The position numbers and the translations under genes are program-made. Source: Phycisphaerae bacterium (lineage in GTDB: Bacteria; Planctomycetota; Phycisphaerae; UBA1845). Taken from it: a stretch of 45,441 nucleotides of DNA. Below the pieces are notes generated by a model that made no database searches, was not told the DNA's origin, and worked only from the letters and a program-made list of their open reading frames with translations. Of the stretch, positions 6,594 to 37,328 are shown piece after piece (position 1 is the stretch's first letter; each line of letters begins with the position of its first letter). The stretch lies in NCBI GenBank assembly GCA_029260055.1, contig JAJDDX010000400.1:1-45441 (forward strand). The letters run 5' to 3'.

Positions 6594-9335
6594 CTAGCCA
6601 AGGCCCAGGAACGCCGCGATCTGAGGCGCGAACTTCACCACCAGGCCCGCGAAGACAACGCTCACCATGCTCATCAGCTTGATGAGGATGTTGAGGCTCG
6701 GGCCCGAGGTATCCTTGAACGGATCGCCGACGGTATCACCGACGATGGTCGCCTTGTGTGTGTCGCTTCCCTTGCCACCGAAGTGGCCCTTCTCGACATA
6801 CTTCTTGGCGTTATCCCACGCACCACCGGCGTTCGCCATGAAGATCGCCACGGCGAAACCGCTGGTCAGACCACCGGCGAGCAACCCCATCACGCCAGGC
6901 ACGCCGAAAACCAGGCCGACGATGACCGGCACGGCAATCGCCAGGAGCGACGGTATGATCATCTCCCGCTGCGCACCGGCAGTCGAAATCGCCACGCAAC
7001 GTGCGTAGTCGGGCACCTTGGAGCCCTTGTGCTCGACCTGCTCACGCGGCCAGTTATCCGAGTTGGCGGCTTCCTCGGCGGACATGCCCTTCACGTCCAT
7101 GAGGTAGGCGCCGACCTTCTTGAACTGTTCACGGCACTCGAGCATCATCGCATAGGCCGCCCGGCCAACCGCCTGCATCGTCAGGGCGCAGAACAGGAAC
7201 GCCAAGAGCACCCCGGAGAACATGCCGCAGAGCACCATCGGGTTCATCAGCGTCACGTTGTAGAAGTCCATGAACTGCTGGAGCGATGCCTTCCGAGTCC
7301 GCACGAGTTGCAGCGCGTGCGACTTGCCGTCATAGGCGAACGTCGCCTTCTGTACGTACTCCGCTTCATGGAGCGCAGGCGTCAGGCCCGCGATCTTGAA
7401 ACCTGTTTCTCGCCCCACTGCGTCAAGCTTGGCATCCAAATCGGTCTGGGCCTTGCGAGACAGGAGCATGTAGGCATCGTAGTTCGCTTCGGCTGTGCCG
7501 GACTCGAACTTCTCCGCGAACTTGCCATAGCCCATGTAGTAAACGTCTCCCACACCGGCATCGGCGGTCTTCTCCGCTTCGCTGTCGACGACCATGACGT
7601 ACTCGGCAGCTTCACGGACCTGCCCGATGCGGACCTCCTCAACATAGGCTGCGAGAAGGGCCAGAGCGGTCAGGGCCGCTGAGCCAATGGCGAAGCCCTT
7701 ACCGGTCGCGGCCGTCGTGTTCCCGAGCGAGTCGAGGGCGTCGGTACGCTCACGAACCTCAGGCTTCTGACCGGTCATTTCGGCGTTGCCACCGGCGTTG
7801 TCGGCGATCGGGCCGTAGGCGTCGGTCGCCAGTGTGAAACCGAGCGTCGAGAGCATGCCAACGGCAGCAAGGCCCACGCCATAGAGGCCGAGCATGAAGT
7901 TGTCGGAGCCACCGGCAAACGTGAACGCGCCGAGGATAGCCGCGATAATGATCGCCAGGGACGCCCAGGTACTCTTCATCCCCTCCGCGACGCCGGCGAT
8001 GATGACGGTGGCGGCCCCGGTTTGCCCCTGCTCGGCGATCCGCTGAGTGGGCTTGAAATCGTAGCTTGTGTAGTACTCGGTCGACTTTCCGATGAGCCAT
8101 CCTGCAGCCAGCCCAACGAACACCGCGGAGGCGATGCCGAACCAACTGATCCCATCGATGTCGCCGAGCAGCAGCTTGCAAATGACGAAGGTCACCACAA
8201 CGATCACGAGGCTCGACACCACGAGCCCCTTGTTCAGGGCGCCCATGAGCTGAGCCATCGTGGCGCCTTCCTCGGTCTTGACGAGGTTGATGCCCGCCCA
8301 AATGCTGGCAATGATGCCGGCACCGGCGATCACCATCGGAACCGCCAGGAAACTGATCGCCTCGGCGCCGAGCGTAGCTGTGTGGCCCAACGCGTGCGCG
8401 GATGCGACGCCGAGGGCGGCGGTCGCAAGGATGGATCCGGCGTAGGACTCGTAGAGGTCGGCACCCATGCCGGCTACGTCGCCGACGTTGTCGCCGACGT
8501 TGTCCGCGATGGCGGCGGGGTTACGCGGGTCGTCCTCGGGGATTTCCGCTTCGACCTTACCGACAAGGTCCGCACCGACATCGGCGGCCTTGGTGTAGAT
8601 ACCGCCACCGACGCGAGCAAAGAGCGCCTGCGTGCTCGCACCCATGCCGAAGGTCAGCATGACGACCGTGATCTCGTGCAGTGGCATTTCCGAGAAGTAG
8701 TATAGACCGAAGAACCACAGCGTGATGTCGAACAGGGCCAGGCCGACGACGACCATGCCCATGACGGCACCGGCGCGGAACGCGACCCGCAGGCCGCGGT
8801 TGAGCCCCTCACGCGCGCCGGCCGTCGTACGGTGTGCTGCGATCGTCGCGGTGCGCATGCCGAAGTAGCCGCAAAGCCCGCTAAAGAAGCCGCCCGTCAG
8901 GAACGCCCACGGCACGAGCGGATGCTGTACATTCAGACCCCACGCGAGGTAGTTCAGGATGGCGCACAACGCCACGAACACCCAGAAGACGCGGGTATAC
9001 TGGCGACGAAGGTAGGCCATCGCGCCATCGCGGACGTACCCGGCAATCTTGATCATGTCGGGATCGCCTTCGTCGGAAGCGATGACCTCGTTGTAGTACT
9101 TCTTCGCCATGACGAGCGCCACCACCGCACAAATCGGGGCGATCCACCAGAGCCACGGGATACCCGGCCGCTCCGACCCCGCTATATTGGCTGCTTCATC
9201 CGCCGCCGCTGCAGGCGCCGCCGCTGCGGGGGCCGCCGCATCCTGGGCAAACGCCGGCTGCGCGCTGAGCAGCATAGCGCCGCCAACCGCAACCAAGCCC
9301 AACATCAACAGTACTCGCACGTGTTTCGCTTTCAC
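6594..9335 (-). CDS. hppA: Membrane-bound ion-pumping pyrophosphatase, K+-dependent type
   Basis: Hydrolyses PPi in the cytoplasm and pumps H+ and/or Na+ outward. GTG 9335 is chosen because AGGAG sits 8 bases upstream; the 913-residue product then begins with a signal-like segment (VRVLLMLGLVAVGGAMLLSA...AFA) and an Ala-rich linker. Family hallmarks are EDDPRNPAAIADNVGDNVGD near residue 270, GPIADNAGGNAEM, and DTVGDPFKDTSGPSLN near the C terminus. Ala in GNTTAATGKG marks the K+-dependent class. Glu in DLYESY sits where Na+-pumping members have it, so Na+ or Na+/H+ transport is plausible. About 120 extra soluble residues (roughly 570-690, DNA 7265-7625) lie between two membrane helices, where the loop is normally short. 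Divergent from apt. Confidence 0.93.
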   Translation of the reverse strand: MKAKHVRVLLMLGLVAVGGAMLLSAQPAFAQDAAAPAAAAPAAAADEAANIAGSERPGIPWLWWIAPICAVVALVMAKKYYNEVIASDEGDPDMIKIAGYVRDGAMAYLRRQYTRVFWVFVALCAILNYLAWGLNVQHPLVPWAFLTGGFFSGLCGYFGMRTATIAAHRTTAGAREGLNRGLRVAFRAGAVMGMVVVGLALFDITLWFFGLYYFSEMPLHEITVVMLTFGMGASTQALFARVGGGIYTKAADVGADLVGKVEAEIPEDDPRNPAAIADNVGDNVGDVAGMGADLYESYAGSILATAALGVASAHALGHTATLGAEAISFLAVPMVIAGAGIIASIWAGINLVKTEEGATMAQLMGALNKGLVVSSLVIVVVTFVICKLLLGDIDGISWFGIASAVFVGLAAGWLIGKSTEYYTSYDFKPTQRIAEQGQTGAATVIIAGVAEGMKSTWASLAIIIAAILGAFTFAGGSDNFMLGLYGVGLAAVGMLSTLGFTLATDAYGPIADNAGGNAEMTGQKPEVRERTDALDSLGNTTAATGKGFAIGSAALTALALLAAYVEEVRIGQVREAAEYVMVVDSEAEKTADAGVGDVYYMGYGKFAEKFESGTAEANYDAYMLLSRKAQTDLDAKLDAVGRETGFKIAGLTPALHEAEYVQKATFAYDGKSHALQLVRTRKASLQQFMDFYNVTLMNPMVLCGMFSGVLLAFLFCALTMQAVGRAAYAMMLECREQFKKVGAYLMDVKGMSAEEAANSDNWPREQVEHKGSKVPDYARCVAISTAGAQREMIIPSLLAIAVPVIVGLVFGVPGVMGLLAGGLTSGFAVAIFMANAGGAWDNAKKYVEKGHFGGKGSDTHKATIVGDTVGDPFKDTSGPSLNILIKLMSMVSVVFAGLVVKFAPQIAAFLGLG

Positions 9336-9678
9336 CGCTTGCTCTCCTATCACGCCCATGTCTGACGCTCGCGGAATTTTCATACGGGAGACGCCGAAAG
9401 GCGCAACCAACGATCCCCGCGCCGGAATCGTCGGCCTTCCGTAACTTATTACCATTTAAACACTTACATCAGCCCAACGGGAGCGCGGAATCAGCGCGCC
9501 ACGCTGAAGACGCGGGACTATAGCAAAACCGCGCACGTGTGCCAAACGTTTTTACGCAATCCGTGAAGCGGCACCGACATAAGGACGAAAACGCACGCCA
9601 CCGCGACACGGACCCGCAGGTCCGATACAATCTCCGGCTCGCGAACTAGCACCGTTTGACAAGGTCGAAGGAGCCGCC
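9336..9678. other. Divergent intergenic region, pyrophosphatase/apt
   Basis: 343 bases without a gene. An AT-rich patch at about 9440-9475, unusual in this GC-rich DNA, probably belongs to the pyrophosphatase promoter, though no clean -35/-10 pair was found there. A better candidate promoter for apt lies at 9603-9631. No repeat or riboswitch was recognised. Confidence 0.5.
9603..9631 (+). promoter_or_regulatory. Candidate sigma70-type promoter of apt
   Basis: GCGACA (9603-9608), a 17-base spacer, then TACAAT (9626-9631), matching consensus at 4/6 and 5/6. The expected start of transcription is about 40 bases before the apt ATG. Seen by eye only. Confidence 0.4.
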
Positions 9679-10281
9679 ATGACACCAGGAACGCCGCCAG
9701 CTATGGTCGCTCCGACCACCCAGGGAGCCGACATGGACCGGGACGCCAGAATCCATATCACCAAGCTGCGGGACCTGATCCGCGACGTGCCCGACTTCCC
9801 CAAGCCGGGCATCGTGTTCAAGGACATTACCCCGCTGCTCCTGCACCCGGCCGCCCTCTCCCTGGCCGTCGAGTACCTCTGTCAGCCCTTCCGGCACCTC
9901 AAGGTGGACGTCGTGGCTGGAGCGGAATCGCGTGGGTTCATCTTTGGCACGGCGGTGGCGCGGAACCTGTCAGCCGGGTTCGTGCCGATCCGCAAGCCGG
10001 GCAAGCTTCCGCACGTGACTAGGTCGGCCGAATACGAGTTGGAATACGGCACCGACAAGCTCGAAATCCACGAAGATGCCATCGGGCCGGGCACGCAGGT
10101 GCTCTTGGTGGACGACCTGCTGGCAACCGGCGGCACGATGGTGGCGTGTACCGAGCTGATCGAGGCGCTCGGAGGACAGATCGTCGGTACCGCGTTCTTA
10201 ATCGAGCTTGCGTTCCTGAACGGGCGCGACAAGCTTGAAAAGTACCCGATTCATTCGATCCTGACCTACGACGCAGAATAG
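9679..10281 (+). CDS. apt: Adenine phosphoribosyltransferase
   Basis: Converts adenine and PRPP to AMP and PPi in purine salvage (cytoplasmic). The 200-residue product has the family N-terminal signature (IRDVPDFPKPGIVFKDITPL), the strand GAESRGFIFGTAVA, the IRKPGKLP loop, and the PRPP-binding motif VLLVDDLLATGGTM with Asp 145 and 146. The start at 9679 has AAGGAG (9668-9673) 5 bases upstream and gives an N-terminal extension of about 18 residues; a second ATG at 9733 would give a length nearer the usual 170-180. The divergent neighbour is a pyrophosphatase, which would consume PPi, the by-product of this reaction; whether the pairing is functional is inference. Confidence 0.93.
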   Translation: MTPGTPPAMVAPTTQGADMDRDARIHITKLRDLIRDVPDFPKPGIVFKDITPLLLHPAALSLAVEYLCQPFRHLKVDVVAGAESRGFIFGTAVARNLSAGFVPIRKPGKLPHVTRSAEYELEYGTDKLEIHEDAIGPGTQVLLVDDLLATGGTMVACTELIEALGGQIVGTAFLIELAFLNGRDKLEKYPIHSILTYDAE

Positions 10282-21807: not shown

Positions 21808-24800
21808 TCACGGGCAATCTTGCGGCGCGGCGAATGGGTAGCTTCCGCCCTGGAAGCCGGCGACCGCCCAGTCGATGTCCTTGAAGTTGATGTCCGTGAA
21901 GTCCGGAATGTCCGGCGTCTGGTTGCCGCCCTGGAGGTCCAGCCAGGTCTTCGGCTCCGATTGGGTGCTCTGGAAGCCGCGCACGACGGCTGAGATGTCT
22001 TTGAAGTTGCGGTTGCCGTCGGGCGGTGTGCCGGGCGTTCCACCCACGACATCGCCGAAGTCGATGGTCGTATGCAGCATGAGCGCGTCGGAGTAGTTGG
22101 CCTCATCGTCGACATTCATGTTCTCGGCAATCGCCTGGATGACATAGGTGCGGCCCGGTGAGGTCTCGCAGTCGCCGACATGGACCGTCGCATTCATCCA
22201 CGGCTGCCCCACGTTGTCTACGCTCCAGTCACGGTAGTGGGGAGCGCTCTCGATTCGCGCGAGCAGTTGCGGCGTTGCTTCGGGCCCGGCGACCGCCAGT
22301 TCGACCGGCTCTGCGATCCACCCGAGGAAGATGTTGTTCCCGCCCAGATCGTAGAGGCTGACGCGACGCGCGGTGAGAAGCCCGGCGTTGTCGGGGTTGG
22401 GTGCGATCGATAGGTACCGGTTCCTTGCCACGTAGCAGACGCCCGGATCGGGGCTGCCCGGGGGCACGTGCAGACAGTAGACCGATGAGCTGGGGTTGAG
22501 ACCCGCTCGGCAATCGTCATCCGTGCTGCAAGGTACGACGGTGCCGCCAATGTCGAAGGCATCGTCCGGTCTCGGCATGGCAGGAGCGGTCGGCGAACAG
22601 CCGTCGTCCACGCCGTCGCCGTTGTTGTCGCCCAAGCAGAGCTGTCCGGGAGCCGCCGGCGTACCGCCCAGGCCCACGCAACACTGCGGATCTAGGTCGT
22701 CGCACGAGCCGTCGGCGAAGCAGCAGGCTTGCGCGGGCTCGCAAAGGGTAGCGAGCGGCGTGCCGCCGAGCGACGCACAGCAGGCCGGCTCGGCGTCGAC
22801 ACACGTCCCGTCGGCCAGGCAGCATCCGGTCGAGGGTGTCAGCGTCACGGGGATGTCGCAGATGTTGCCGGCGCAGTCGGTCACACGAACTTCACCGCTA
22901 CCCGCTCCGCCCGCGCCGCAGCCCAGTTCGATCGAGTAGCGCACGATCGCGTCCCCCCCGATGAACGGATCGACCGCCAGCGTCATGTTCACGGCACCCG
23001 GAAGCAGCTCGACGCTGCAGATCCCGCTGGCGAACGTGCCGCTGTCCTCCGCGCGGCCGTCGTATCGTTCGGGGTACGTGGGACTTTCGATGGTCACCGA
23101 CCAGCTATCGAGGCTGCCGACGTTGTACTGCGCGTCGTCGACGACCTGGATCGTGTATGGACCGGCGGCCGGCGAGCCGTCGAGCACGAAGAGTGACGGT
23201 CCGCCTTCGGGCTGATACGACCCGGTAAACGGCGCTTCGGATGACGAATCGGGAATCGGCGAGGGCGCCTCGTCATCCAGCGTCGTGTCGATGAAGTCGT
23301 TACCGGTGAGGCCGATGTCGCTGAAGAGGTCTCTGAACGTCGGCGCGGTCAGGCGGAAGTCGATGTCGTCGTCGAAACCATGCGTGATGTTGAACGTAAT
23401 GTCCACGTCGGAAATGATGTCGGTGTCAGGCACATTGATTGTCGAGACGACGCCGCTTGCGTTGTTGTCCGGGATCGGTGCCGGAAGGTCGTCGCTGCTG
23501 ATGTATCGCTTCGTGTGGCTGATCGACCCCGTGCAGGCCGGGCCGACCGGGTCGATGTGAACCAGAATGTGTTCACGCAGGCCGCAAAGATCGGTCGCGC
23601 GGATGTAGCCTCGTCCGCCTTCGGTGGGATTGATCAGCCCCACCACGAAGTCGACGCTGCCCACGCCGCCCGGCGGAATCGAAGGCACGATGGAGAGAAT
23701 CTCCAAGTTGTGCGAATAGGGTGCCAGCTCGACGGCCACGACGCCAGTGTCGCCCGGACCCTGGTCGGAGGCGCTACCCTCGAACTCGAGCGTGGACGGA
23801 TTGACGGCTCCGGTCAGGATCGGCGCGACGGCGTCGCCGGTTTCGGCCGCGAGGTCGATCGCGACGAACTCGACGTTGCTGTCGCAGTCGGTGATCTCGA
23901 GGGTGCCGGTGCCGGCCACCGCCGGGTCGATCAGCACGACTTCGTAATCGACGACCTCGTCGCCCGGCGTGAAGGTCGCGCCGGCGGACAGGTTTACCGC
24001 ACCGGCGCCGAGTTCGACCGAACAGATACCGCTACCCGGTGCGAAGTCGATGGCTCTACCGACGTAGTGCTCTGCTCCGCATGGCGACTTGATGGTCATG
24101 GCCCACCGACGGAAGGTGGAGTGGGCCGATCCGGCGCCTTGAATACGGAAATCGCCCACAAAGAGGTCCCACTGACCGACCGCGTCTTTGTTCGACAAGA
24201 CGAAGAGCATGTTGTCGCGATCGTCGGTGGTGATGCCGTCGCCGATGGCCTGGCCGCGGCCGTCGGGTTGGTGCAGCCCGAGCAACTCGATCGCACCGGA
24301 CGCGGGCTCATCGTGGATGTCGTCTGCCTGCGGCGCGTCGTCGTCGAGCGTGACCTCGATGTTGTTCTTGGTGAGCCCCACGCTGCCGCGGTCGTCCATG
24401 CCGATGCGATTGGCTAGGGAGGCGAATTCGGCGCCGTGCGTCAGCGTCGAAGCGAGTCGGCCCACGTCAAGCGTATCCACCGTCAAGTCGACCTCGACCT
24501 CGCCGACGAGCAGCGATGTCGGTATCGACACGGATCGCACGACGCCAGAAGGGTCGCCGCCGGGCACGTCGGCCTGAACCTCATCGGCGAACGTCCAGTC
24601 GGTGGAGGCCGCCCCGGCGCTGACCGGTGCGGTCACATCCGGAAGGCCGTTGAGGGTGATGATCGACTGGCACGTATTCTCGGCGAGGTCGGTGACCGCC
24701 ACCGTCCCCGAGCCGCCGGCGTCCGGGTCGATGAGCGTGACCAGGTAGTCGACGACAAGATCGCCGGGGACGAACTCCGGTGAGACGGTCAGTTCCGCAT

Positions 24801-27492
24801 TCACGGCACCGGTCAATACGATCGTGTCGATTCCGGCGTCAAACCCCTGTGTGTCGCTCACGGTACCCGCGAAGCTCTCCGGTCCGGGGAACCCCGCGTC
24901 GATGTCGAGCGACCATCGTGCCAGGCGCGCGCCACCGCCACCGGAACTGCTGTCGTCACGCACGTTGAGCCGCCAAGTGCCCTGCGCGTCCTCTCCGATC
25001 AGCTTGGCAAGACCTTGCGGATCCTCGGGGAGCCATGTGCCCGTGTAGGGCGCATCGCCGCTCATGATCGACATGATCTCCTCCGCGTCGTCGTCGAACG
25101 TCGCATCGGTAATATCGAAGGCCAGGCTGCTGCCGCGATCGGTGATCAGTTCGACGGAGGTGCCGGTCGGACTGATCAGGAATACGTCCATGTCGGGCGG
25201 CCGCACCGTCTCGATGGAGATGGTGACGTTGACATCGTAAACCAGTCCGGGTTCGTTGATCTCGATGGTGCCGTCGATGCCCGGACCGGTCGGCTCGTTG
25301 TCGGGCACGTGGATCGGCCCGTGCATGCTGTAGGGACTGCGATTCGAGAAGTTGACGCCGTCGCACACCGGCGGGTGTACGTCGATGTTGACGACCTGGC
25401 ACACGGTGTTGCCGGCGCAGTCCGCCACGAGCAGCTTGCCGAAGCCGCTGTCGGCCGGGTTGATCAATTCCACGGCGAAGTCGGCCGTCGGGTCACCGGG
25501 TGTAAACACGAGGCCGGTGAGCTGCAGGTTGGTGGCGTCCACGAGCTGAGCGCTGCAGATGCCGCTGTCGCCGGGCTGGTCGTCCTCGGCCAGAACGTCG
25601 ATGAGGTTGCCCGGATAGTCCGGCGTCTGGGTCATGACGGGGTCGGACTCGTCGGTCATCGCCGGCGCGTCCTCGTTGACAAAGACCGCCACTTCGTAGG
25701 TCTCTTCCGGCCCGACCTGCGACACGGCGCTCTGGGCGGCCACGCTGACATAGTGCGTGCCTTCGGTGCGCGCCACGAAGAAGGCACCCTGGGCGGGGTA
25801 GTCCGGCCCGGATTGGACCGAGTTCGAATCACTCACGTCGCCGATCAGGATGTCACCGGCCGGGTCGTATACCACGAGCTTCGCGTGGAATGCCTTGGGA
25901 TCGGTGGTGGGTGACTCCATGCCAGTCGAGTCGCGTTCCGGGTCACCGTCGGCCGCAATGAAGACGCGATCACCGACGGCTGTCTTGAAGGCGTAGTAGT
26001 CGACGTCGCCGACCTGATCGATCACGCCCGCATAGTAGTGCTTGCCGGTGAAGTCCGCCGAGGCGAGCGTATCGTTCGGCTCGCACTCGGGCAGTGGAGC
26101 GCGCGTGGCGGGCTCCACGCCCGTGTGCATCCGATAGCGATGGACCGTTCCGATGGCGCTCTGATCGGTCACGACGAAGTAGTGGTCACCATCGGCGGTC
26201 ATCCGTGCCCCCGCGATGACGGGCGAGGTCGTGCTGTAGACGTAGCGCAGGTCTTCGATTGGCGCATCGGCACCGTCGCCGTCCTCGTCGTCGAATTCGA
26301 GCAAGGTCGAACCGTTAGGCGCGTAGAATTCCAGGTCGGTATCCAGCGTGCTATTGGACGACCCGCCGTTGTTGGCCCATGCGTAGACCTTGTCGCCTGT
26401 CAGTCCGGTCACGGCCCACCAGTCCTCATCGAGAGGTCCGACGAGTTGCCCGCCGTTGAGCGGCGTGGTCAAAGGCGTCGCGTCGATCGCGTCGTCGTTG
26501 GGTTCGACCTCACTGATCTCGTAGCCGAACGCGGTGTCGACAATCAGGGCGTAGGCGCCGGTCGTCAGTGTCGTGCTGCCGTTGTCGACGTAGATGTAGT
26601 ATGGCGTCCCCGCTTCCAGCGTCACGACGATGAGTTCGTGTTTCCCGCCGCTGCTTCCGGAGGTGCTGTGATTCGACGCCCCGAGGCACCCGCCCGGGAA
26701 GACCGGCGGACACGAGGTGTTGACGTACAGCACGCCATCGAATCCGGCGGTGCCGAGTTCGAAGGCATACTCGCCGGTGACCGTCGGCTCGAACACGAAG
26801 ACGTGATCGTTACCCGGCGCGGTCGTCGGGGTCGCGCCGGACACGGCGCACTGGCCGGTGCCCTGCACGAAGAAGTAGTCAGGCAGCGCGCCGTCGATGT
26901 CATTGAGCGCAACCGTCGGGAGGTCCGTCGAAAGAGACTCGGCCGTGACACACTTGTCCGGCGCGACGGCCGAGAGTAGATCGACCAGAAGCGTAAACGG
27001 GAAGTTGTCGTGGGTGGCCGCGTTGTAGTCGACGCCGATGCGATAGGTCAGGCCGGCCGCGAGTGATACGTCGAAGTAGACATTCCTTCCGGTGCCGCCT
27101 GCCCGGGCACCCGCCAGAAAGATGCTGTCACCGTCCTGGATGTAGATCGTGAACTGCCGGTCGGATGACCTCAGCGGCGCGCGCTGCCACGGCATGAGGT
27201 GCACGCGATACACGTCCGACACGTTGGGCGTGAAACTGTAGAACACGTCAGGGCCGTCCACATCGTCCGCGGGCGGCGGCAGCGTGGTGGCCGAGATGCT
27301 GTCATCGGCGAGCACCGTTGTGCCGAAGACGACGATCGGCACGTCCGGCCCGATCGTCTCGGCATTGGCCGGGTCGTCATTGGGCGGCGCGGGTGGCAGC
27401 GCGAACGCGGCGCTCGTGAGCAGAGCCGAACACACGATGATCGCGAGCACGCGAACTCGCGACGCCGACGGCGGCAACGGTTCCATAGACAT
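21808..27492 (-). CDS. Giant secreted multidomain protein with dockerin-like C terminus
   Basis: 1,894 residues from ATG 27492, with AAGGAA 8 bases upstream. A signal peptide (VRVLAIIVCSALLTSAAFA) comes first. Residues to about 680 hold several pre-peptidase-type beta modules (E-x-N-D-x-x-x-x-A openings: ISEVEPNDDAIDATPL, PECEPNDTLASADF). Three P-domain-like (proprotein-convertase type) beta sandwiches follow, recognisable by PDMDVFLISPTGTSVELI, VGQWDLFVGDF and GFDDDIDFRLTAP. These alternate with about five copies of a ~70-residue module ending in VTDCAGN-like strands. A Cys-rich segment (CCLADGTCVDAEPACC, CCFADGSCDDLDPQCC) and a C-terminal pair of NFKDI...GFQ motifs end the chain. No catalytic motif was recognised; probably structural or adhesive on the surface. 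Divergent from the giant secreted subtilase. Confidence 0.85.
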   Translation of the reverse strand: MSMEPLPPSASRVRVLAIIVCSALLTSAAFALPPAPPNDDPANAETIGPDVPIVVFGTTVLADDSISATTLPPPADDVDGPDVFYSFTPNVSDVYRVHLMPWQRAPLRSSDRQFTIYIQDGDSIFLAGARAGGTGRNVYFDVSLAAGLTYRIGVDYNAATHDNFPFTLLVDLLSAVAPDKCVTAESLSTDLPTVALNDIDGALPDYFFVQGTGQCAVSGATPTTAPGNDHVFVFEPTVTGEYAFELGTAGFDGVLYVNTSCPPVFPGGCLGASNHSTSGSSGGKHELIVVTLEAGTPYYIYVDNGSTTLTTGAYALIVDTAFGYEISEVEPNDDAIDATPLTTPLNGGQLVGPLDEDWWAVTGLTGDKVYAWANNGGSSNSTLDTDLEFYAPNGSTLLEFDDEDGDGADAPIEDLRYVYSTTSPVIAGARMTADGDHYFVVTDQSAIGTVHRYRMHTGVEPATRAPLPECEPNDTLASADFTGKHYYAGVIDQVGDVDYYAFKTAVGDRVFIAADGDPERDSTGMESPTTDPKAFHAKLVVYDPAGDILIGDVSDSNSVQSGPDYPAQGAFFVARTEGTHYVSVAAQSAVSQVGPEETYEVAVFVNEDAPAMTDESDPVMTQTPDYPGNLIDVLAEDDQPGDSGICSAQLVDATNLQLTGLVFTPGDPTADFAVELINPADSGFGKLLVADCAGNTVCQVVNIDVHPPVCDGVNFSNRSPYSMHGPIHVPDNEPTGPGIDGTIEINEPGLVYDVNVTISIETVRPPDMDVFLISPTGTSVELITDRGSSLAFDITDATFDDDAEEIMSIMSGDAPYTGTWLPEDPQGLAKLIGEDAQGTWRLNVRDDSSSGGGGARLARWSLDIDAGFPGPESFAGTVSDTQGFDAGIDTIVLTGAVNAELTVSPEFVPGDLVVDYLVTLIDPDAGGSGTVAVTDLAENTCQSIITLNGLPDVTAPVSAGAASTDWTFADEVQADVPGGDPSGVVRSVSIPTSLLVGEVEVDLTVDTLDVGRLASTLTHGAEFASLANRIGMDDRGSVGLTKNNIEVTLDDDAPQADDIHDEPASGAIELLGLHQPDGRGQAIGDGITTDDRDNMLFVLSNKDAVGQWDLFVGDFRIQGAGSAHSTFRRWAMTIKSPCGAEHYVGRAIDFAPGSGICSVELGAGAVNLSAGATFTPGDEVVDYEVVLIDPAVAGTGTLEITDCDSNVEFVAIDLAAETGDAVAPILTGAVNPSTLEFEGSASDQGPGDTGVVAVELAPYSHNLEILSIVPSIPPGGVGSVDFVVGLINPTEGGRGYIRATDLCGLREHILVHIDPVGPACTGSISHTKRYISSDDLPAPIPDNNASGVVSTINVPDTDIISDVDITFNITHGFDDDIDFRLTAPTFRDLFSDIGLTGNDFIDTTLDDEAPSPIPDSSSEAPFTGSYQPEGGPSLFVLDGSPAAGPYTIQVVDDAQYNVGSLDSWSVTIESPTYPERYDGRAEDSGTFASGICSVELLPGAVNMTLAVDPFIGGDAIVRYSIELGCGAGGAGSGEVRVTDCAGNICDIPVTLTPSTGCCLADGTCVDAEPACCASLGGTPLATLCEPAQACCFADGSCDDLDPQCCVGLGGTPAAPGQLCLGDNNGDGVDDGCSPTAPAMPRPDDAFDIGGTVVPCSTDDDCRAGLNPSSSVYCLHVPPGSPDPGVCYVARNRYLSIAPNPDNAGLLTARRVSLYDLGGNNIFLGWIAEPVELAVAGPEATPQLLARIESAPHYRDWSVDNVGQPWMNATVHVGDCETSPGRTYVIQAIAENMNVDDEANYSDALMLHTTIDFGDVVGGTPGTPPDGNRNFKDISAVVRGFQSTQSEPKTWLDLQGGNQTPDIPDFTDINFKDIDWAVAGFQGGSYPFAAPQDCP

Positions 27493-27641
27493 GGGAGTGC
27501 TTCCTTCACCTGTGGCCGCCCGAGGATCGGCAAGAAGGGCACGCCGATTCCACCGGAACGGGCCGAACACACTACGATCGAGACTTGGCACCCCTCCTAC
27601 GTCCGGAGCACGGAGCGCGGACAGGAGGTATCAACGTCGCC

Positions 27642-27670
27642 ATTCTACCGTGCAGCACGATCGCGAACAA
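27642..27670 (-). promoter_or_regulatory. Candidate promoter of the 1,894-residue exoprotein
   Basis: On the minus strand TTGTTC is followed by exactly 17 bases and then TAGAAT. The same -10 and spacing occur before the FG-GAP repeat gene at 35389-35417. The -35 match is weak. Confidence 0.4.
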
Positions 27671-28008
27671 AGTGCGGAATTGTCTGCACGTGACTATGGC
27701 GAGAGATAGCGAGGATCGGCACGAAAGGCGCTGGTCGGGGTCGGCGGCGCACCGCCGAGCGCTCGGTCTCGCGCGGCCAATCGGCAACTAGCGCGGTCTA
27801 TAACCTGGGTGGAACGCGTCAGGAGTCGAACGGACCGCCTCCCACGCAGCCACAGCGGATGGCGGCCAGCCCCGCTTTTATCGGGCCGTTCGGAGTCGTG
27901 CCGGACCGTGCGCCGGCCGTGAAAACGCACGATCCGTAAAGCCTAAGCTCGAAAGTGTTCGCCGTTTGACACGCGCGCACACCGGCGTGAGCGCGAAACA
28001 ACGGATCA

Positions 28009-28037
28009 TTGAAGTAAAAAGGCCGTGGCGTTACACT
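28009..28037 (+). promoter_or_regulatory. Candidate promoter of the giant secreted subtilase
   Basis: TTGAAG (28009-28014), 17-base spacer, TACACT (28032-28037); each matches 4 of 6 consensus bases. It would leave a leader of about 245 bases before the ATG. Confidence 0.3.
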
Positions 28038-28288
28038 GAAAGGGCCGCCACGGTGCGAGCAAGGGGAAGGCAGCGGGGCAACGGTCTGTGTAAGCAACCG
28101 CCGACCTGCGTAAAAAAACTCAGCTTCATCCCCGCCGTAAGAAGGCGAGAGTGCTGCGCATTTGTTCGGTGAACCGCTCGCGGTTCAGGCCGGCCGAGCG
28201 CGATGTGCGGTGTAACCCGATGTGTACACACCGTGGTGACCAGGGCGGGTCGTCGTGGTCTTTTCTAAATGTCGAGGAAGGTTTGCTT

Positions 28289-31200
28289 ATGTCCCCCAAG
28301 AAATGTGGTCCTGCAACTTACCGGCTGGTTGCCGCACTTGTAGCACTCGCGATCTGTTCGAGCGTGGCTCGAGCGGACGAGCCGATCCAATGGAACACCG
28401 GAGCGGTGGTGACGGCATCACAGACGCCGGCACAGCTCGATGCCAGTTTGACGGCATTGGCTGCGCGCGGCGACGCGCGGCACATGGTGGTCCGGTTTTC
28501 GGAGCCCGTGACGTCGGAACAGCGCGCCGCGCTTGCGGCGGCCGGCTTGCGTCTGCACGGCTACGTCGGCAGTAACGCCTTCTTCGCTTCGGTCGCACCG
28601 AGCGGCCTCAATGTGACCGCCGCCATTGCGGCGGCTCCGATGGTCGACGCGCTGCCGATCGAGCGCGCGTGGCGCATGCACCGAGACTACTACAAAGTTG
28701 AACCGGAGCCCCACACCATCGTGTCGCCTCCCGATTCGAAGGCAACCGATCCTGCCGAGCCCGTCGTGGTGGGTGCGTACGTGATCTTCCATCCGGACAT
28801 AACGCTCCAGAAGGGCATCGACACGGTCAGGCAATACGATGCGAAGATCCGCTCCGAACTCGAAACGATCAACGGACTGGTCATCGAGCTTCCGTTCGAC
28901 GTCATCCCCGCCCTGGCGGACGAGGATGCCGTTCAATGGATCGAGCCCCCCCTGCCCAAGTTCGGGACACTCAACGACAGTAACCGCGCCATCACGGGCA
29001 CGGACATCGTCAACGCACCGCCCTACGACCTCGACGGCACGGGCGTAAGCGTGATGGTCTACGACGCCGGATGCGGCCTTGCGTCACACGTGGGCTTCGG
29101 CGGTAGGCTGACCGTGCGTGACACGTCGGGCACGGGCGATCACGCGACACATACGGCCGGGACGATCGGCGGTAACGGTGCCAATTCCCCCGGGGGCGGC
29201 ACAGCCCAGCGCGGCATGGCGCCTGGCGTCACGATCGAGGCGTACGGTTTCGAGGTGGAAGGTGGGCTGCAACCGGGATTCCTCTACAGCGACCCCGGCG
29301 ATCTGGAGCAGGACTACACCGACGGTGTGAACAACCATGGCGTCCAGATCTCCAGCAACTCCATCGGCAGTAACGTCGAGTCCAACGGTTACAACTGCGA
29401 CTGGCAGGGCGAGTACGGCGTCACGGCATCGCTGATCGACTCGATTGTGCGCGGCAGCCTCGGGGCACCGCATCGGGTCGTGTGGGCGGCGGGTAACGAG
29501 CGTCAGGGCTCGCGCTGCCAGACCGAGGGGCACGGCGAGTACTACAGCATCGCCCCGCCCTCCGGCGCGAAGAACCATCTCTGCATCGGCGCGATGAACT
29601 CTAACGACGACTCGGTGACCTACTTCACGAGTTGGGGACCGACAGATGACGGACGCCTGAAACCCGACTTCTCCGGCCCCGGGTGCCAGAGCGGCGGCGA
29701 CGGCGGCGTCACCTCCACCTCGAGCAACGGCGGATACAACACCAAGTGCGGCACGTCGATGTCCTGCCCCACGGTGGCCGGCCTTTCGGCGCTGTTGCTT
29801 CAGGACTGGGCGGCGCTCTACCCCGGCGCCCCCGACCCGCGGAACTCGACGCTCAAGGTAGTGTTCGCACAGACGGCCGTCGACCTGCAGAACCCCGGTC
29901 CGGATTACAAGACGGGCTACGGCTCCGTGCGTATTCAGCCGGCCATCGACCTCGTGCGTGCAGAGAACTTCCTCGAAGCGGAGGTGTCACAGGGCGGCAT
30001 GTTCTCGGCTTTGATCATCGTCGCTCCGGGCGACCCGGAGATGAAGGTAACCCTCGCGTGGGACGACGCACCGGGGACGCCGAACGTCTATCCGAGCCTG
30101 GTCAACGACCTCGACCTTGTCGTCTATGGTCCGTCCGGCGCGCAGCACTTCCCGTGGACGTTGGATCCGAACAACCCGAGTGCCGCCGCTGTGGCGAATC
30201 AGGCCGACCACGTGAACAACATCGAACAGGTCGCCGTGTCATCACCGGCACCGGGCGCCTACCGCGTCGAAGTACACGGTTTCAACGTACCGCAAGGACC
30301 GCAGCCGTTCTCTCTGGCCGGTTCTCCTTACGTGGTGAACTGCTCCACTGCCGGCGTGATCTCGCTGGGTAACAAGTTCGCCTGCGAGAGCACGGCGACA
30401 ATTCAGGTCGTCGACTGCGACCTGAACACGAGTGACGCCACGATCGAGCAGATCGTCGTTCCGATCGTGTCGGGCAGCGAGCCCACCGGTGAGATGGTGA
30501 CGTTGACCGAGACGGCGGCAGAGTCCGCTGCGTTCATGGGGACGATCACGCTCAGTGAAACGGACGCAGCCGGCGTGCTCTTGATCGGCCATGGCGACAC
30601 GGTCACGGCCACATACATCGACGAGGATGACGGCTTCGGGAACCTGAATGTCACGGTCGAGGCGTCCGGCGTCGTCGACTGCGTCGGGCCGATCATCTCG
30701 AACGTGCAGACGATCGACATCGAGCCCCGTGCCGCCACGGTCACCTTCGACACCGACGAAGATGCGTCGGGCACGGTCTTCTACGGCACGAGCTGCGCCG
30801 GGACGACGAACGAGGCTTCGGCGAACGGGTCCAACACCAACCATTCGATCATCATCGGCGGCTTGCAGGACGCCTCGACGTACTTCTATCGGATCGAGGT
30901 AGCGGACCAGGCCGGCAACCCGGCTGCGGATGACAACGGCGGCGCATGCTACACCTTTTCGACGCCGGACATCCCGGACTTCTTCACCGAGCAGTTCGAA
31001 GGCGACCACGATCTCGACAACACGATGATCACGTTCACGCCGAACGGCACGGTGGACTATTACAGCGCTTGCGCCGAGGCGATCACGGCACTGCCGACGG
31101 ACCCGACCGGCGGCACGACCCTGTCGATGTCTGATGACACGAGTGCGGTGATGAACTTCACCGGCGGCCAGACGGTCTCGCTGTATGGGACCACGTGGGG

Positions 31201-32845
31201 GTCGGCCTACGCCGGCAGCAACGGGTATGTCACGTTCGGCGGCGGCGACTCGGACTACTCCGAATCGCTGACCGACCATTTCACCATGCCGCGTATCTCA
31301 GGCGTGTACGACGACCTGAACCCCAGTTCCGGCGGTACGGTAAGCTGGCGTCAACTGGCCGATCGCGTGGCTGTGACCTGGGACGGCGTGCATGAGTACG
31401 GCACGACCGGTCCTTGCACGTTCCAGATCGAGATGTTCTTCGACGGGCGACTCGCCATCAGCTATCTTTCGATCGCATCGGATGACAGCATCGCCGGTCT
31501 CTCGGAAGGTAGCGGCCTGAGCCCGGACTTCCTCGAGTCCGATCTGTCCAACGCCAACGGTTGCGGTCCGACGGACTGCAACAACAACGGCACGCCGGAC
31601 GACGAGGACATCGCCAATTGTCCTCCGGGCGACGCGGCCTGTGCGGACTGCAACAACAACGAGTTCCCGGACGAGTGCGATCTGGGCGGTGTGTCGGCGG
31701 ACTGCAACGGGAACGGCATTCCCGACGAGTGCGACACGGCTGACGGCACCGAGCCGGACTGCAACAACAACAGCGTGCCGGATGCGTGCGATGTGTCGTC
31801 GGGCAACTCGGGAGACTGCAACAGCAACGGCATCCCGGACGAGTGCGACACGGCCGACGGCACCGAGCCGGATTGCAACAACAACAGCGTGCCGGACGGG
31901 TGCGATGTGTCGTCGGGCAGCTCTGACGACTGCAACAGCAACGGCGTGCCCGACGAGTGCGACGTGGCGGGCGGATCGGACTGCAACACCAACGGTGTGC
32001 CGGATGAGTGCGATTTGGCAGCCGGCACGTCCGAGGACTGCAACGGGAACAACCAGCCGGACGAATGCGACATCGCGAATTGCCCCTTCCCGCCGTTCTG
32101 TGTCGACTGCAACCTCAACGGCGTACCGGACAACTGCGACATCGCCGACGGCACCGAAGAGGACTGCAACCGCAACTTCATCCCCGACACGTGCGATATC
32201 GCCGAGTGTGCGGGCGGCCCGGCCTGCGACGACTGCAACGGCAATGGCATCCTCGACGGATGCGACATTGCGGACGGCGCGGTGGACGGAGATGCCAACG
32301 GCATCCCGGACGTGTGCGATCTGACGGCACCGATGGTCGCCGGTGAAGGTCCTCGGTTCCTGGCTGTCACGCCGCAGCCTCCGGACATCCTCGTTCCGGT
32401 CGCGCTGCAACTGACGGGTGCGGCGGGCGATGCGGACATCGCCTGCGTCTCGACGTACGTGCAACTCGACGGCACGCTCGGCGCCGCGCCGGTCTATCAG
32501 TTGCCGGCTGACTGGAGTACCGTCCACGCCCACGGCGACGAGATCCTGCCGGGCAAGACCTATGAACTCCAGTCACGGTTGTCGGACGGGCTGCTCAGCA
32601 GTGCGGGCAGTGGCACGACCTGGATGTGGGGTGACGTGAACAACAACGGGATCGTCAATTTCACGGACATCAACATCGTGGTCCAAGGCTTCCAGGGCGA
32701 CTTCTCACAGGCGCCGATAGAGGCGGTTGACCTCGATCCTTGTATCCCGAATGGAGACATCAACTTCGAGGACATCAACCGTGCGGTGCAGGCGTTCCAG
32801 GGCCAGCCGTTTACGGCGTCCGGTTGCGCGATCCCCTGCCCGTAG
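28289..32845 (+). CDS. Giant secreted subtilisin-like (S8) protease with Ca-type repeats and dockerin-like end
   Basis: 1,518 residues from ATG 28289, with GAGGAAGG about 8 bases upstream. A signal peptide ends at SSVARA. A propeptide-like region (to about 235) precedes the S8 domain, with Asp 259 in VMVYDAGCG, His 285 in GDHATHTAGT and Ser 490 in GTSMSCPTVAG. A P-domain-like sandwich, an FN3-like module (EASGTVFYG-type strands, near residues 810-890) and an unassigned beta domain follow. Residues about 1,095-1,345 are some 14 short D-C-N-x-N-x-x-P-D-x-C-D units resembling Ca-binding thrombospondin-3 repeats. The end (DVNNNGIVNFTDINIVVQGF, then NFEDINRAVQAFQ) is dockerin-like and related to the end of the divergent giant. 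Probably an extracellular or surface protease. Confidence 0.88.
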   Translation: MSPKKCGPATYRLVAALVALAICSSVARADEPIQWNTGAVVTASQTPAQLDASLTALAARGDARHMVVRFSEPVTSEQRAALAAAGLRLHGYVGSNAFFASVAPSGLNVTAAIAAAPMVDALPIERAWRMHRDYYKVEPEPHTIVSPPDSKATDPAEPVVVGAYVIFHPDITLQKGIDTVRQYDAKIRSELETINGLVIELPFDVIPALADEDAVQWIEPPLPKFGTLNDSNRAITGTDIVNAPPYDLDGTGVSVMVYDAGCGLASHVGFGGRLTVRDTSGTGDHATHTAGTIGGNGANSPGGGTAQRGMAPGVTIEAYGFEVEGGLQPGFLYSDPGDLEQDYTDGVNNHGVQISSNSIGSNVESNGYNCDWQGEYGVTASLIDSIVRGSLGAPHRVVWAAGNERQGSRCQTEGHGEYYSIAPPSGAKNHLCIGAMNSNDDSVTYFTSWGPTDDGRLKPDFSGPGCQSGGDGGVTSTSSNGGYNTKCGTSMSCPTVAGLSALLLQDWAALYPGAPDPRNSTLKVVFAQTAVDLQNPGPDYKTGYGSVRIQPAIDLVRAENFLEAEVSQGGMFSALIIVAPGDPEMKVTLAWDDAPGTPNVYPSLVNDLDLVVYGPSGAQHFPWTLDPNNPSAAAVANQADHVNNIEQVAVSSPAPGAYRVEVHGFNVPQGPQPFSLAGSPYVVNCSTAGVISLGNKFACESTATIQVVDCDLNTSDATIEQIVVPIVSGSEPTGEMVTLTETAAESAAFMGTITLSETDAAGVLLIGHGDTVTATYIDEDDGFGNLNVTVEASGVVDCVGPIISNVQTIDIEPRAATVTFDTDEDASGTVFYGTSCAGTTNEASANGSNTNHSIIIGGLQDASTYFYRIEVADQAGNPAADDNGGACYTFSTPDIPDFFTEQFEGDHDLDNTMITFTPNGTVDYYSACAEAITALPTDPTGGTTLSMSDDTSAVMNFTGGQTVSLYGTTWGSAYAGSNGYVTFGGGDSDYSESLTDHFTMPRISGVYDDLNPSSGGTVSWRQLADRVAVTWDGVHEYGTTGPCTFQIEMFFDGRLAISYLSIASDDSIAGLSEGSGLSPDFLESDLSNANGCGPTDCNNNGTPDDEDIANCPPGDAACADCNNNEFPDECDLGGVSADCNGNGIPDECDTADGTEPDCNNNSVPDACDVSSGNSGDCNSNGIPDECDTADGTEPDCNNNSVPDGCDVSSGSSDDCNSNGVPDECDVAGGSDCNTNGVPDECDLAAGTSEDCNGNNQPDECDIANCPFPPFCVDCNLNGVPDNCDIADGTEEDCNRNFIPDTCDIAECAGGPACDDCNGNGILDGCDIADGAVDGDANGIPDVCDLTAPMVAGEGPRFLAVTPQPPDILVPVALQLTGAAGDADIACVSTYVQLDGTLGAAPVYQLPADWSTVHAHGDEILPGKTYELQSRLSDGLLSSAGSGTTWMWGDVNNNGIVNFTDINIVVQGFQGDFSQAPIEAVDLDPCIPNGDINFEDINRAVQAFQGQPFTASGCAIPCP
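31575..32325 (+). repeat. In-gene array of D-C-N-x-N-G-x-P-D-E-C-D repeats
   Basis: Coding repeats within the giant subtilase: about 14 units of 12 to 13 core residues joined by short linkers, each with two Cys and many Asp/Asn. They suit Ca binding and disulfide bracing of a stalk. Linker lengths vary. Confidence 0.85.
31700..31927 (+). repeat. Near-identical 114-bp tandem duplication
   Basis: Units 31700-31813 and 31814-31927 encode the same 38-residue pair of Cys repeats and differ at only a few bases. A partial third unit begins at 31928. The similarity at DNA level points to a recent in-frame duplication. Confidence 0.85.
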
Positions 32846-35603: not shown

Positions 35604-37328
35604 ATGAAACGGCCACATCTATTCGAGTTGCTCGTTTCGTTTGCTCTGGTCTTGTCGACCTCAACCCAACGCGCCGAGGGGCAGTGCGGCATCAACGAAG
35701 GAGCCAAGCTGACCGCCCCCGACGCGGACGAGCAAGACAATTTCGGCAACTCAATATCTATCAGTGGAAACGCGGTCTTGGTTGGATCGTGGGAAAACGA
35801 CAATCCGGGAAGAGGATCGGCCTACATATACCGGCTCAACGGAACCTCGTGGACTGAAGAGCAAACGTTGACCGCCTCCGACGGGGCGCCGCACGACGGT
35901 TTCGGCAGTGGCGTGTCCATCAGCGGTGATGTGGCAGTGGTCGGCGCGTGGGAAAACGATGACGTCGGTGCCAACTCGGGCTCAGCATACGTGTTCCGCT
36001 TCGACGGGCGTACGTGGGCCGAGGAACAAAAGCTGACCGCCTCAGACGCAGCCTCGTTGGACGATTTCGGTTTCTCCGTGGCCATTGATGGGCACGTCGC
36101 ATTGATTGCGTCGTTGCATGATGACGACGCGGGAAGCAGCTCGGGTTCTGTTTACGCCTACCGTTTCGATGGAAGCGAGTGGGTTGAAGAAGAGAAACTC
36201 ACCGCCTCCGACGCGGCAGCGGGCGACAATTTCGGCTATTCAGTGTCCATAAGTGGCAATGTGGCCTTGGTGGGGGCGTACCAAAACGACGACGCGGGCG
36301 CCAACTCGGGCTCTGCGTATGTGTACCGCTTTGATGGGAACACATGGACCGAAGAACAAAAACTGACCGCCTCCGACGCGGCGGCGGGCGCCGCGTTTGG
36401 CAATTCAGTTTCTATGAGTGGCGACGTGGCACTGATTGGGGCGTTCGGGAATGCCCTCACAGGATCGGCCTACGTGTTCAGGTTCGACGAAACAAACATG
36501 CAATGGGTCGAAGAGCAGAGGTTGGCCGCGTCCGACGGAGGTAGTAACGATCGGTTTGGCTGGTCAGTGTCCGTCAGCGAAGACCTGGCCGTGGTGGGCG
36601 CACGCAATGACGACGACGCGGCCGCCAATTCGGGCTCCGCATACCTATATCGCTTCGACGGGAGTACATGGATTGAAGAGCTGAAGTTGACCGCTTCGGA
36701 CGCGGCGCAAACGGACTATTTTGGGAACGCAGTGTCCATAAGTGAAGGCGTCGCGGCGATCGGTGCATTCCTCGACGACGACGGAGGATACAACTCGGGC
36801 TCCGCCTACGTGTTCGGCGCAGCGCCGGCCCTCAGCGACCCGCCATGCGGGGCGATCGACGCCCGTCAAACGTCGGCGCCCGACGGCAGCGCCGCTGCAG
36901 GTTGGGATTCGATCGCGTTGACATTCGACGAACCCACGGGCGCGTTAAGCGCCGAGGACTTTGCGGTGGTGGTCAGTCCACCGGGCGTCGCGCCAGTCGT
37001 GACCGACGCGATGATCGACGGCAGCACGACCACGGTCCATTTTGATAGCTTCATTCCGAGCGGGGCCTGGACGACGATCACCCACTGGCCGACAGGCGCG
37101 GTCACGCGCGTCGGCTACCTTCCAGCCGACGTCAACAACGACAAGATCAGCAATCCCGGCGACATTCTTGCGGTTATCGATTCGCTCAACGGCGTCACGC
37201 CACTCCCGGACTACGCTACAGATGCGGATCGTAGCGGCGTTGCCGACCCGTCTGACATTCTCATGGTGATCGATCTGCTCAACGGAGCCGGTTCGTATGA
37301 CCCTTGGCTCGACCAATCGCTGCCCTAG
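35604..37328 (+). CDS. Secreted FG-GAP-like beta-propeller protein with type I dockerin
   Basis: 574 residues from ATG 35604, with GGAG 6 bases upstream. A signal peptide (LFELLVSFALVLSTSTQRAEG) precedes seven repeats of about 54 residues with the pattern LTASDAAAGDNFGYSVSISG, then VALVGAYQNDDAGANSGSAY and VYRFDG-x-W-x-EEQK. The D-x-F-G-x-S-V-S-I-S-G core is FG-GAP/integrin-type propeller sequence. A further beta domain (about 405-500) follows. The end is a two-part dockerin: DVNNDKISNPGDILAVIDSL and DADRSGVADPSDILMVIDLL, each with a Ca-binding loop. Probably an extracellular or surface-attached protein; ligand unknown. The C-terminal dockerin differs from the NF-x-D-I type used by the two giants. 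Confidence 0.87.
   Translation: MKRPHLFELLVSFALVLSTSTQRAEGQCGINEGAKLTAPDADEQDNFGNSISISGNAVLVGSWENDNPGRGSAYIYRLNGTSWTEEQTLTASDGAPHDGFGSGVSISGDVAVVGAWENDDVGANSGSAYVFRFDGRTWAEEQKLTASDAASLDDFGFSVAIDGHVALIASLHDDDAGSSSGSVYAYRFDGSEWVEEEKLTASDAAAGDNFGYSVSISGNVALVGAYQNDDAGANSGSAYVYRFDGNTWTEEQKLTASDAAAGAAFGNSVSMSGDVALIGAFGNALTGSAYVFRFDETNMQWVEEQRLAASDGGSNDRFGWSVSVSEDLAVVGARNDDDAAANSGSAYLYRFDGSTWIEELKLTASDAAQTDYFGNAVSISEGVAAIGAFLDDDGGYNSGSAYVFGAAPALSDPPCGAIDARQTSAPDGSAAAGWDSIALTFDEPTGALSAEDFAVVVSPPGVAPVVTDAMIDGSTTTVHFDSFIPSGAWTTITHWPTGAVTRVGYLPADVNNDKISNPGDILAVIDSLNGVTPLPDYATDADRSGVADPSDILMVIDLLNGAGSYDPWLDQSLP
35700..36830 (+). repeat. Seven in-gene propeller repeats of about 162 bp
   Basis: The phrase CTGACCGCCTCCGACGCGGC or a close variant recurs at about 35708, 35868, 36030, 36200, 36362, 36522 and 36688. 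Several units are close enough at DNA level to allow recombination between them. Confidence 0.8.

Follow-up and report, generated by a model that had tools for sequence, protein, structure and literature searches.

A dockerin-like C-terminal module on about a hundred proteins of a Phycisphaerae genome

Two large genes of a Phycisphaerae bacterium, pointing away from each other on either side of an intergenic region, encode proteins with signal-peptide-like starts that carry different domains and end alike. The locus raises the question of what this shared end is, how many other proteins carry it and what it might bind. It lies on contig C334 of a genome of 7.6 Mb in 500 contigs; the contig, 45,441 nucleotides long, is the whole stretch of DNA that was analysed and is referred to here as the window. 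In a first-pass annotation, the two ends had been taken for a shared attachment or sorting module distinct from the classical dockerin of a third protein in the window.

The divergent gene pair

The two proteins, P1 and P2, carry two forms of a C-terminal module, here called the A-type and the B-type FN3-Doc module. Residue conservation was read from two alignments of full-length modules that end near the stop codon, A2 with 65 of 85 A-type open reading frames (ORFs) and A3 with 29 of 35 B-type ORFs. The features of the locus are the following, with ORF residues numbered in stop-to-stop frames.

21808..27492, minus strand: P1, 1895 amino acids (ATG at 27492, stop at 21808), with a signal-peptide-like start, a match to the P-domain and, at its end, an A-type FN3-Doc module
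24904..25236, minus strand: proprotein convertase P-domain of P1, the best of two stretches (PF01483, 67.4 bits; coordinates computed from ORF residues 786-896)
22438..22572, minus strand: P1 module, part 1, a small cluster of cysteines (positions 35, 41 and 53 in alignment A2, each a Cys in 65/65 rows)
22057..22437, minus strand: P1 module, part 2, a predicted FN3-like beta-sandwich (AlphaFold2 model and FN3 chain matches)
21811..22056, minus strand: P1 module, part 3, a dockerin-like double loop-helix, each loop with an insertion, followed by a Cys-Pro tail (the model has helices at residues 210-220 and 250-260)
27493..28288, no strand: intergenic region of 796 bases between the divergent ATGs of P1 and P2 (computed)
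28289..32845, plus strand: P2, 1519 amino acids (ATG at 28289, stop at 32845), with a signal-peptide-like start, an S8 protease domain and a B-type FN3-Doc module
29120..29923, plus strand: Peptidase_S8 domain of P2 (PF00082, 114.2 bits; ORF residues 324-591)
31574..32338, plus strand: linker of P2 containing DCNxNxxPD repeats (the protein matches this motif 11 times)
32339..32629, plus strand: P2 module, part 1, a predicted FN3-like beta-sandwich (AlphaFold2 model and FN3 chain matches)
32630..32842, plus strand: P2 module, part 2, a dockerin-like double loop-helix with a Cys-bearing tail (Dockerin_1, 22.8 bits, cut-off 22.9)
35604..37328, plus strand: P3 (ATG at 35604), a protein of FG-GAP repeats whose classical type I dockerin, at 37125-37283, is outside the module family

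A further cysteine, Cys 66 of alignment A2, starts the second part of the P1 module. The classical dockerin of P3 scored 21.2 bits against Dockerin_1 in the protein scan (cut-off 22.9) and 25.6 bits in the genome scan.

The earlier description of this locus was borne out, with small corrections to the motifs. The two genes diverge with exactly 796 bases between their ATGs, both proteins end in Cys-Pro, and the Pfam domains in front differ, with a P-domain in P1 and an S8 protease in P2. Paired NF-x-DI...(G/A)FQ motifs are also present in both ends: P1 has NFKDI twice rather than NFKDI and NFTDI, once at ORF residue 1862 (then RGFQ) and once at 1902 (then AGFQ), and P2 has NFTDI at 1503, followed by QGFQ, with a second unit that reads NFEDI at 1538 and continues with QAFQ, not GFQ. 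An Rfam scan of the window placed two tRNAs elsewhere and had no match in the 796-base region, and an RNA in that region was therefore rejected; nor was a promoter-like site found by a sigma-70 scan of positions 27400-28400. The DCNxNxxPD repeats of the P2 linker, which precede the module, look thrombospondin-3-like by eye.

Predicted fold and kinship with dockerins

AlphaFold2 models built on own-genome alignments predict the same architecture for both types, a beta-sandwich followed by two loop-helix units, with confidence up to the very end (pLDDT 95.2 and pTM 0.90 for A; 93.4 and 0.88 for B); in the A module, the cysteine cluster precedes the sandwich. The nearest chains to the predicted sandwiches are FN3 domains at middling Z-scores, 5myb_A for B (Z 7.0, rmsd 2.4 over 87 residues) and 2crz for A (Z 5.6, rmsd 5.3 over 100 residues). 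Fold searches with the whole modules, which barely probed the Doc part, returned FN3 and Ig-like domains, with no dockerin chain among the matches listed. Six cysteines, one of them in the tail, are invariant in 65/65 A rows, and the last cysteine is found in 29/29 B rows; this invariance suggests that the module contains disulphides. The aspartates at positions 194, 212 and 252 of the A type are likewise each present in 65/65 rows.

The two types are homologous, sister forms as judged from a profile comparison with hhalign (E 2e-20 for the Doc part and 1.6e-8 for the FN3 part). The A type has insertions in both loops. Two B rows, L138 and one of L140, contain a Pro-Pro-Asp insertion in loop 1, like the A type, and look like intermediates between the two.

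The first calcium loop of a type I dockerin follows the pattern D-x-D/N-x-N/D-G-x-x-N-x-x-D and leads into a helix. The NF-x-DI motif corresponds to positions 9-13 of such a dockerin-type loop. Loop 1 of the B type follows the pattern closely, with Asp at position 1 in 27/29 rows, Asp or Asn at position 3 in 26/29, Asn or Asp at position 5 in 23/29, Gly at position 6 in 23/29, Asn at position 9 in 23/29 and Asp at position 12 in 29/29, and a helix at 140-150. In the A type, loop 1 contains an insertion, and Asp-1 and Asp-12 are found in 65/65 rows. In neither type does loop 2 show the canonical ligand pattern: B has an insertion and a variable position 3, and A has a longer insertion. The helix is kept.

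Library searches place the B type at the margin of the dockerins. Against Dockerin_1 (PF00404), P2 scored 16.5 bits as a whole protein and 22.8 bits with its Doc stretch, 0.1 bits below the cut-off; this was the best of the 15 among 29 B Doc stretches that matched at E<=0.1, whereas none of the 65 A modules had a Dockerin_1 match in Pfam. The GC-type dockerin domain NF041540, also of the dockerin class, matched 3 of the 29 B modules weakly (best E 0.016) and none of the 65 A modules. A profile search of the PDB with the B Doc part gave 22 hits at E<=1, none of them strong alone. Chains with cellulosomal names made up 16 of these, the best being CipA 2b59_B (E 0.023); the others were two serine protease and four reticulocyte-binding proteins. 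The whole B profile matched 2b59_B over its dockerin end (E 0.0074).

Compared by hhalign with eleven Dockerin_1-matching stretches of the own genome, ten of which exceeded the Pfam cut-off, the B profile reached 74.9% over the first loop-helix only, and the A profile gave 0.6%, which is not significant. The A type is thus tied to dockerins through its homology with B, and not directly. Some other weak matches were set aside: the L-ascorbate oxidase matches of 12 of the 65 A members (NCBIfam, best E 0.0018) and of 1aoz_A to a short stretch of the A FN3 part (PDB, E 0.076) were taken as chance, and those to EB (eight A members, best 0.0028) and other small Cys-rich Pfam families as due to the cysteine cluster. 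The module is therefore distinct from the classical dockerin as a subclass, as had been proposed, but not in kind: the paired motifs represent the two loop-plus-helix repeats that make up a diverged dockerin, in front of which lies a predicted FN3-like domain.

The module shares the first loop and helix and the C-terminal position with type I dockerins. The closest known parallel to the whole arrangement may be the X-module of CipA (ScaA)/CipB in Clostridium thermocellum, which is thought to stabilise a type II dockerin (2b59, 3kcp), and in which, according to the accessible part of the source, an Ig-like beta-sandwich of about 100 residues directly precedes a two-loop dockerin of about 66 residues (PMC5141474). 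The predicted FN3-like domain stands directly before the Doc part in both A and B, as it does there, and of the PDB sequences 2b59 is matched best by the B profile, although weakly. For the sandwich itself, FN3 chains came first by fold, and 2b59 was found by profile over its dockerin end. Differences from the X-module dyad are the nearness of the sandwich to FN3 chains, the altered second loop, the Cys-Pro tail and the loop insertions of the A type; moreover, the X-module dyad sits on scaffoldins in the part of the literature covered, whereas the module described here ends about a hundred other proteins.

A search of the literature on dockerins and cohesins in Planctomycetes and Phycisphaerae, on the planctosome and on FN3/EF-hand combinations, with subscription papers mostly outside its scope, yielded no description of this module among the entries listed. 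What appears to be new is a class of module that the family libraries do not recognise, together with its copy number and the variety of its cargo. Since A modules escape both Pfam and NCBIfam, dockerin-class proteins of such genomes are undercounted.

Copy number, carriers and distribution

The module is clearly carried by many other proteins of the genome, and the profile search for further carriers that the first-pass annotation had proposed found about a hundred of them. A search of the own genome with the C-terminal 210 residues of P1 gave 119 match places at E<=1, of which about 70 were strong, at roughly 50-75% identity; the best other place was 75% identical (E 8e-114). With the C-terminal 180 residues of P2, 117 places were found at E<=1, about 30 of them strong. 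In the window and 96 fetched genome stretches, which comprise the stronger match places and some weaker ones, profile searches with a threshold of 25 bits identified 85 ORFs with an A-type and 35 with a B-type module, some of them fragments; 81 and 31 of these scored above 100 bits.

Nearly all of these modules are terminal. Among full-length, stop-ended ORFs, the module ends within 12 residues of the stop in 68/71 A and 29/30 B cases, the exceptions including one A with 419 and one B with 175 residues after the module. Contigs C45, C222, C242 and C292 end in or beside A-type modules; the assembly may have been interrupted by these repeats, so that the number of copies is perhaps a lower bound. 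One carrier, at L104:3858-6362, has a TAG stop inside its A-type module and is either decaying or affected by a sequence error. Several carriers stand in runs on one contig, at least four at L097 (C96), at least four at L095 (C14) and three at L104 (C42), and these runs suggest a spread by duplication with exchange of the heads.

The heads in front of the modules vary widely. Local alignment scores were compared over 150 random pairs drawn from 61 A carriers. The median was 44 for the heads, taken as the 196 residues that precede the cysteine cluster, as compared to 39 when the heads were shuffled and 612 for the FN3 and Doc parts. Some heads are nevertheless paralogous, as 17% of the A head pairs scored above the 95th percentile of the shuffled pairs; several B heads are 30-62% identical to that of P2. 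Among the best 25 of 56 Pfam families in 74 A heads (E<=1e-5) were FG-GAP_2 (9), DUF7901 (7), Beta_helix (5), Peptidase_M14 (2) and M1 (1). The complete tally of 18 families for 31 B heads, at the same threshold, contained Peptidase_S8 (3), C25 (2), Ig_3 (2), single cases of M28, M10 and Trypsin_2, and cytochrome families. Peptidases are thus prominent in B, and the families listed for A are mostly of other kinds. FG-GAP_2, the commonest A head, recalls the FG-GAP repeats of P3, so that dockerins of different classes are joined to one type of head. A home-made signal-peptide test was passed by 39/64 A and 18/26 B carriers, as compared to 0/64 and 1/26 mid-protein controls.

The module is patchily distributed within the bacterial family. 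In a sample of 392 genomes of the phylum, with few candidates scored per genome (at most six in the rows listed), the A type was found at E<=1e-10 in the own genome only, among the matches listed (1/392), and the B type at E<=1e-5 in two other genomes, weakly and over part of the module. A search of relatives covered 60 genomes including the own one, with 35 others of the family, all outside the phylum samples, and 24 of other families of the order. Counted from at most 42 scored candidates per genome, A-like matches numbered at least seven in 14 of the 35 family genomes and 1-4 in four, with none in 17, and three of the 24 genomes from other families had one each. Four metagenome-assembled genomes, G407 and G408 among them, had 37-51 matches. 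One genome (G410) had no A-like match, yet a B-like module, which indicates that the A profile misses diverged modules.

Candidate partners and the role of the module

We consider it rather probable that the module acts as an FN3-dockerin dyad, comparable in its working to the cellulosomal X-module/dockerin, and attaches secreted proteins to cohesin-bearing surface scaffolds, in a manner similar to the planctosome. The cysteine-bearing FN3-like domain would support the diverged dockerin with its two loop-helix units, which probably bind calcium, and the dockerin would plug non-covalently into cohesin domains. Two types of socket can be envisaged: small proteins with two or three cohesins, held in the membrane by a hydrophobic, exosortase-type C-terminal tail, and adaptors that carry a cohesin together with a dockerin or an FN3-Doc module. 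In this manner about a hundred proteins, including proteases, FG-GAP proteins and beta-helix proteins, might be displayed on the cell surface.

Components suited to such a system are encoded in the genome. The cohesin family PF00963 had 15 matches, six of them over the cut-off, and profiles of the genome's own cohesins gave 11-12 matches, 12 with profile A5, which contains these cohesins and whose scores for them are circular; a profile of six repeats from two triple-cohesin proteins is independent for the other five places. Both triple-cohesin proteins exceed the PF00963 cut-off of 24.1 (C468, 44.5 bits; C230, 41.0 bits) and have a hydrophobic C-terminal stretch with basic residues, which resembles a CTERM tail by eye and was not matched by the CTERM families. 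Exosortase PF09721 had six matches, two of them strong. The partner cohesins that had been suggested as a target of the search are thus available as candidates.

On contig C468, both module types, cohesins and a hydrophobic-tail protein are encoded in a cluster of open frames on one strand. Frame 1 is a long protein with a cohesin and with HYR- and dockerin-like parts recognised by eye only, and frame 2, of 299 residues, has an IPTL-CTERM match below the cut-off (14.3 versus 20.8). The cohesin-HYR_4C protein of frame 3 carries an A-type module, and its cohesin was recovered by a profile that does not include it (E 1.4e-7). Frame 4 encodes a cohesin-HYR-Dockerin_1 protein, frame 5 an Ig protein that carries a B-type module, and frame 6 the triple-cohesin protein.

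The relatives show a similar linkage. From 131 cohesin matches in 35 relatives, 40 stretches with 54 cohesin ORFs were hand-picked; in eight of these, from eight genomes (L266, L268, L269, L272, L277, L279, L281 and L284), an FN3-Doc frame lies within 300 bp of a cohesin frame or is fused to it, and in L259 and L288 within 4 kb. On the assumption that 42, 100 or 150 of 4500 genes carry a module, 1.0, 2.4 or 3.6 such cases would be expected by chance for 54 cohesin ORFs (P 1e-5, 0.003 and 0.03), a rough estimate because genes for secreted proteins may cluster anyway. Double-cohesin proteins with hydrophobic ends are also encoded in the module-rich genomes G403 (two), G404, G407 and G423, and a double-cohesin pair of G401 has no hydrophobic end in its frame. 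Cohesin matches occur in all 15 genomes with at least seven A-like matches, the own genome included, in three of the four with 1-4 and in nine of the 17 with none; the difference between the first and the last group is significant without correction for kinship (Fisher p 0.003, also without the own genome), and the correlation between cohesin and module copy numbers is weak, again uncorrected for kinship (rho 0.33, p 0.05).

Some of these observations do not favour cohesin docking, namely the non-canonical second loop, the A type without Dockerin_1 match and the presence of cohesins in nine relatives without A-like matches; in two of the relatives without such matches, G394 and G424, double-cohesin proteins with hydrophobic tails are found too. 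The module might instead be a C-terminal domain of dockerin descent, stabilised by calcium and disulphides, that binds something other than a cohesin, such as a surface polysaccharide or another envelope protein. The distance of the A type from known dockerins and the small number of cohesin matches in the own genome (12-15, against about 120 modules) would agree with this, as would the six cysteines, since invariant cysteines are unusual for dockerins. We nevertheless find it rather unlikely, because module genes adjoin or fuse with cohesin genes in the eight stretches and in the C468 cluster. Furthermore, a very large dockerin set in a single genome has a precedent in Ruminococcus flavefaciens FD-1, for which 222 dockerin proteins of several groups, some of them on peptidases, are reported in the accessible part of the source (PMC2930009). 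That bacterium is of another lineage, and the set described here differs from it, as far as that part of the source shows, by the FN3-like partner domain and the conserved cysteines (PMC2930009).

The similar modules behind different heads, and the runs of carriers on C96, C14 and C42, could also be accounted for by a mere structural stabiliser that has spread by recombination and has no partner. This appears very unlikely given the invariant loop aspartates and cysteines and the linkage with cohesins, which together suggest a conserved function. That the module serves as a signal for sorting or secretion, like the T9SS CTD or PEP-CTERM, is even more doubtful, although the terminal position, the amplification on different heads and the beta-sandwich component would suit it, and two carriers have a GBD_T9SS_assoc match and two a Peptidase_C25 in their heads. 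No 17-residue stretch with a mean hydropathy above 1.6 was present in the last 50 residues of the 65 A and 29 B modules, the predicted fold being confident up to the end, and among NCBIfam matches at E<=1 on these modules there were no T9SS families and, apart from one A member's weak match to a MYXO-CTERM-protein family (1/65, E 0.056), no CTERM sorting families. T9SS SprA had no match in the genome at E<=1, in a search in which no control genome passed the cut-off either, and in relatives 8/38 stop-ended modules are followed by 30-731 residues. With no hydrophobic tail, sorting family or SprA match, the T9SS and CTERM readings were set aside. Of the earlier proposal of an attachment or sorting module, attachment is thus retained, consistent with about a hundred carriers, the nearly always extreme C-terminal position and the many signal-peptide-like starts, while sorting is not favoured.

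The proposed docking of secreted proteins on cohesins has a parallel in the phylum. The planctosome of the freshwater Nemodlikiaceae has been proposed as a non-cellulolytic cohesin-dockerin complex with P-domain and protease parts, and the accessible part of that report has in common with our data the Planctomycetes, the cohesin and dockerin proteins, peptidases, P-domains and an HYR domain, and no link to cellulose (PMC6461901). Cohesin and dockerin proteins are likewise found together with peptidases in the genome studied here. As described in the same part of the source, however, the planctosome consists of a few proteins with a lamin-tail-domain anchor (PMC6461901), whereas here there are about a hundred carriers, with a dockerin subclass not recognised by Pfam, and small multi-cohesin proteins with hydrophobic tails.

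If the docking takes place, some hundred proteins encoded by a single genome would have the same address, for which the candidate sockets are few, and cohesin-dockerin assembly would extend from the digestion of biomass towards a broad surface display in the Planctomycetota. One tentative hypothesis is that the module belongs to a general surface-display system of a single bacterial family, in which disulphide-stabilised FN3-dockerin plugs of two sister classes would hold about a hundred varied, largely non-digestive proteins on exosortase-anchored multi-cohesin posts, and would form a cell coat rather than a digestive complex.

One relative without A-like matches (G413; L265 and others) has 28 cohesin matches, several of them in frames of about 2000-7590 residues. 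Finally, some cohesin-HYR proteins (L124:2-4726 and 7825-9852; L151:826-3873) have a different dockerin-like class at their ends, with segments CCG and DLNxDGW recognised by eye; this class may represent a second docking specificity.
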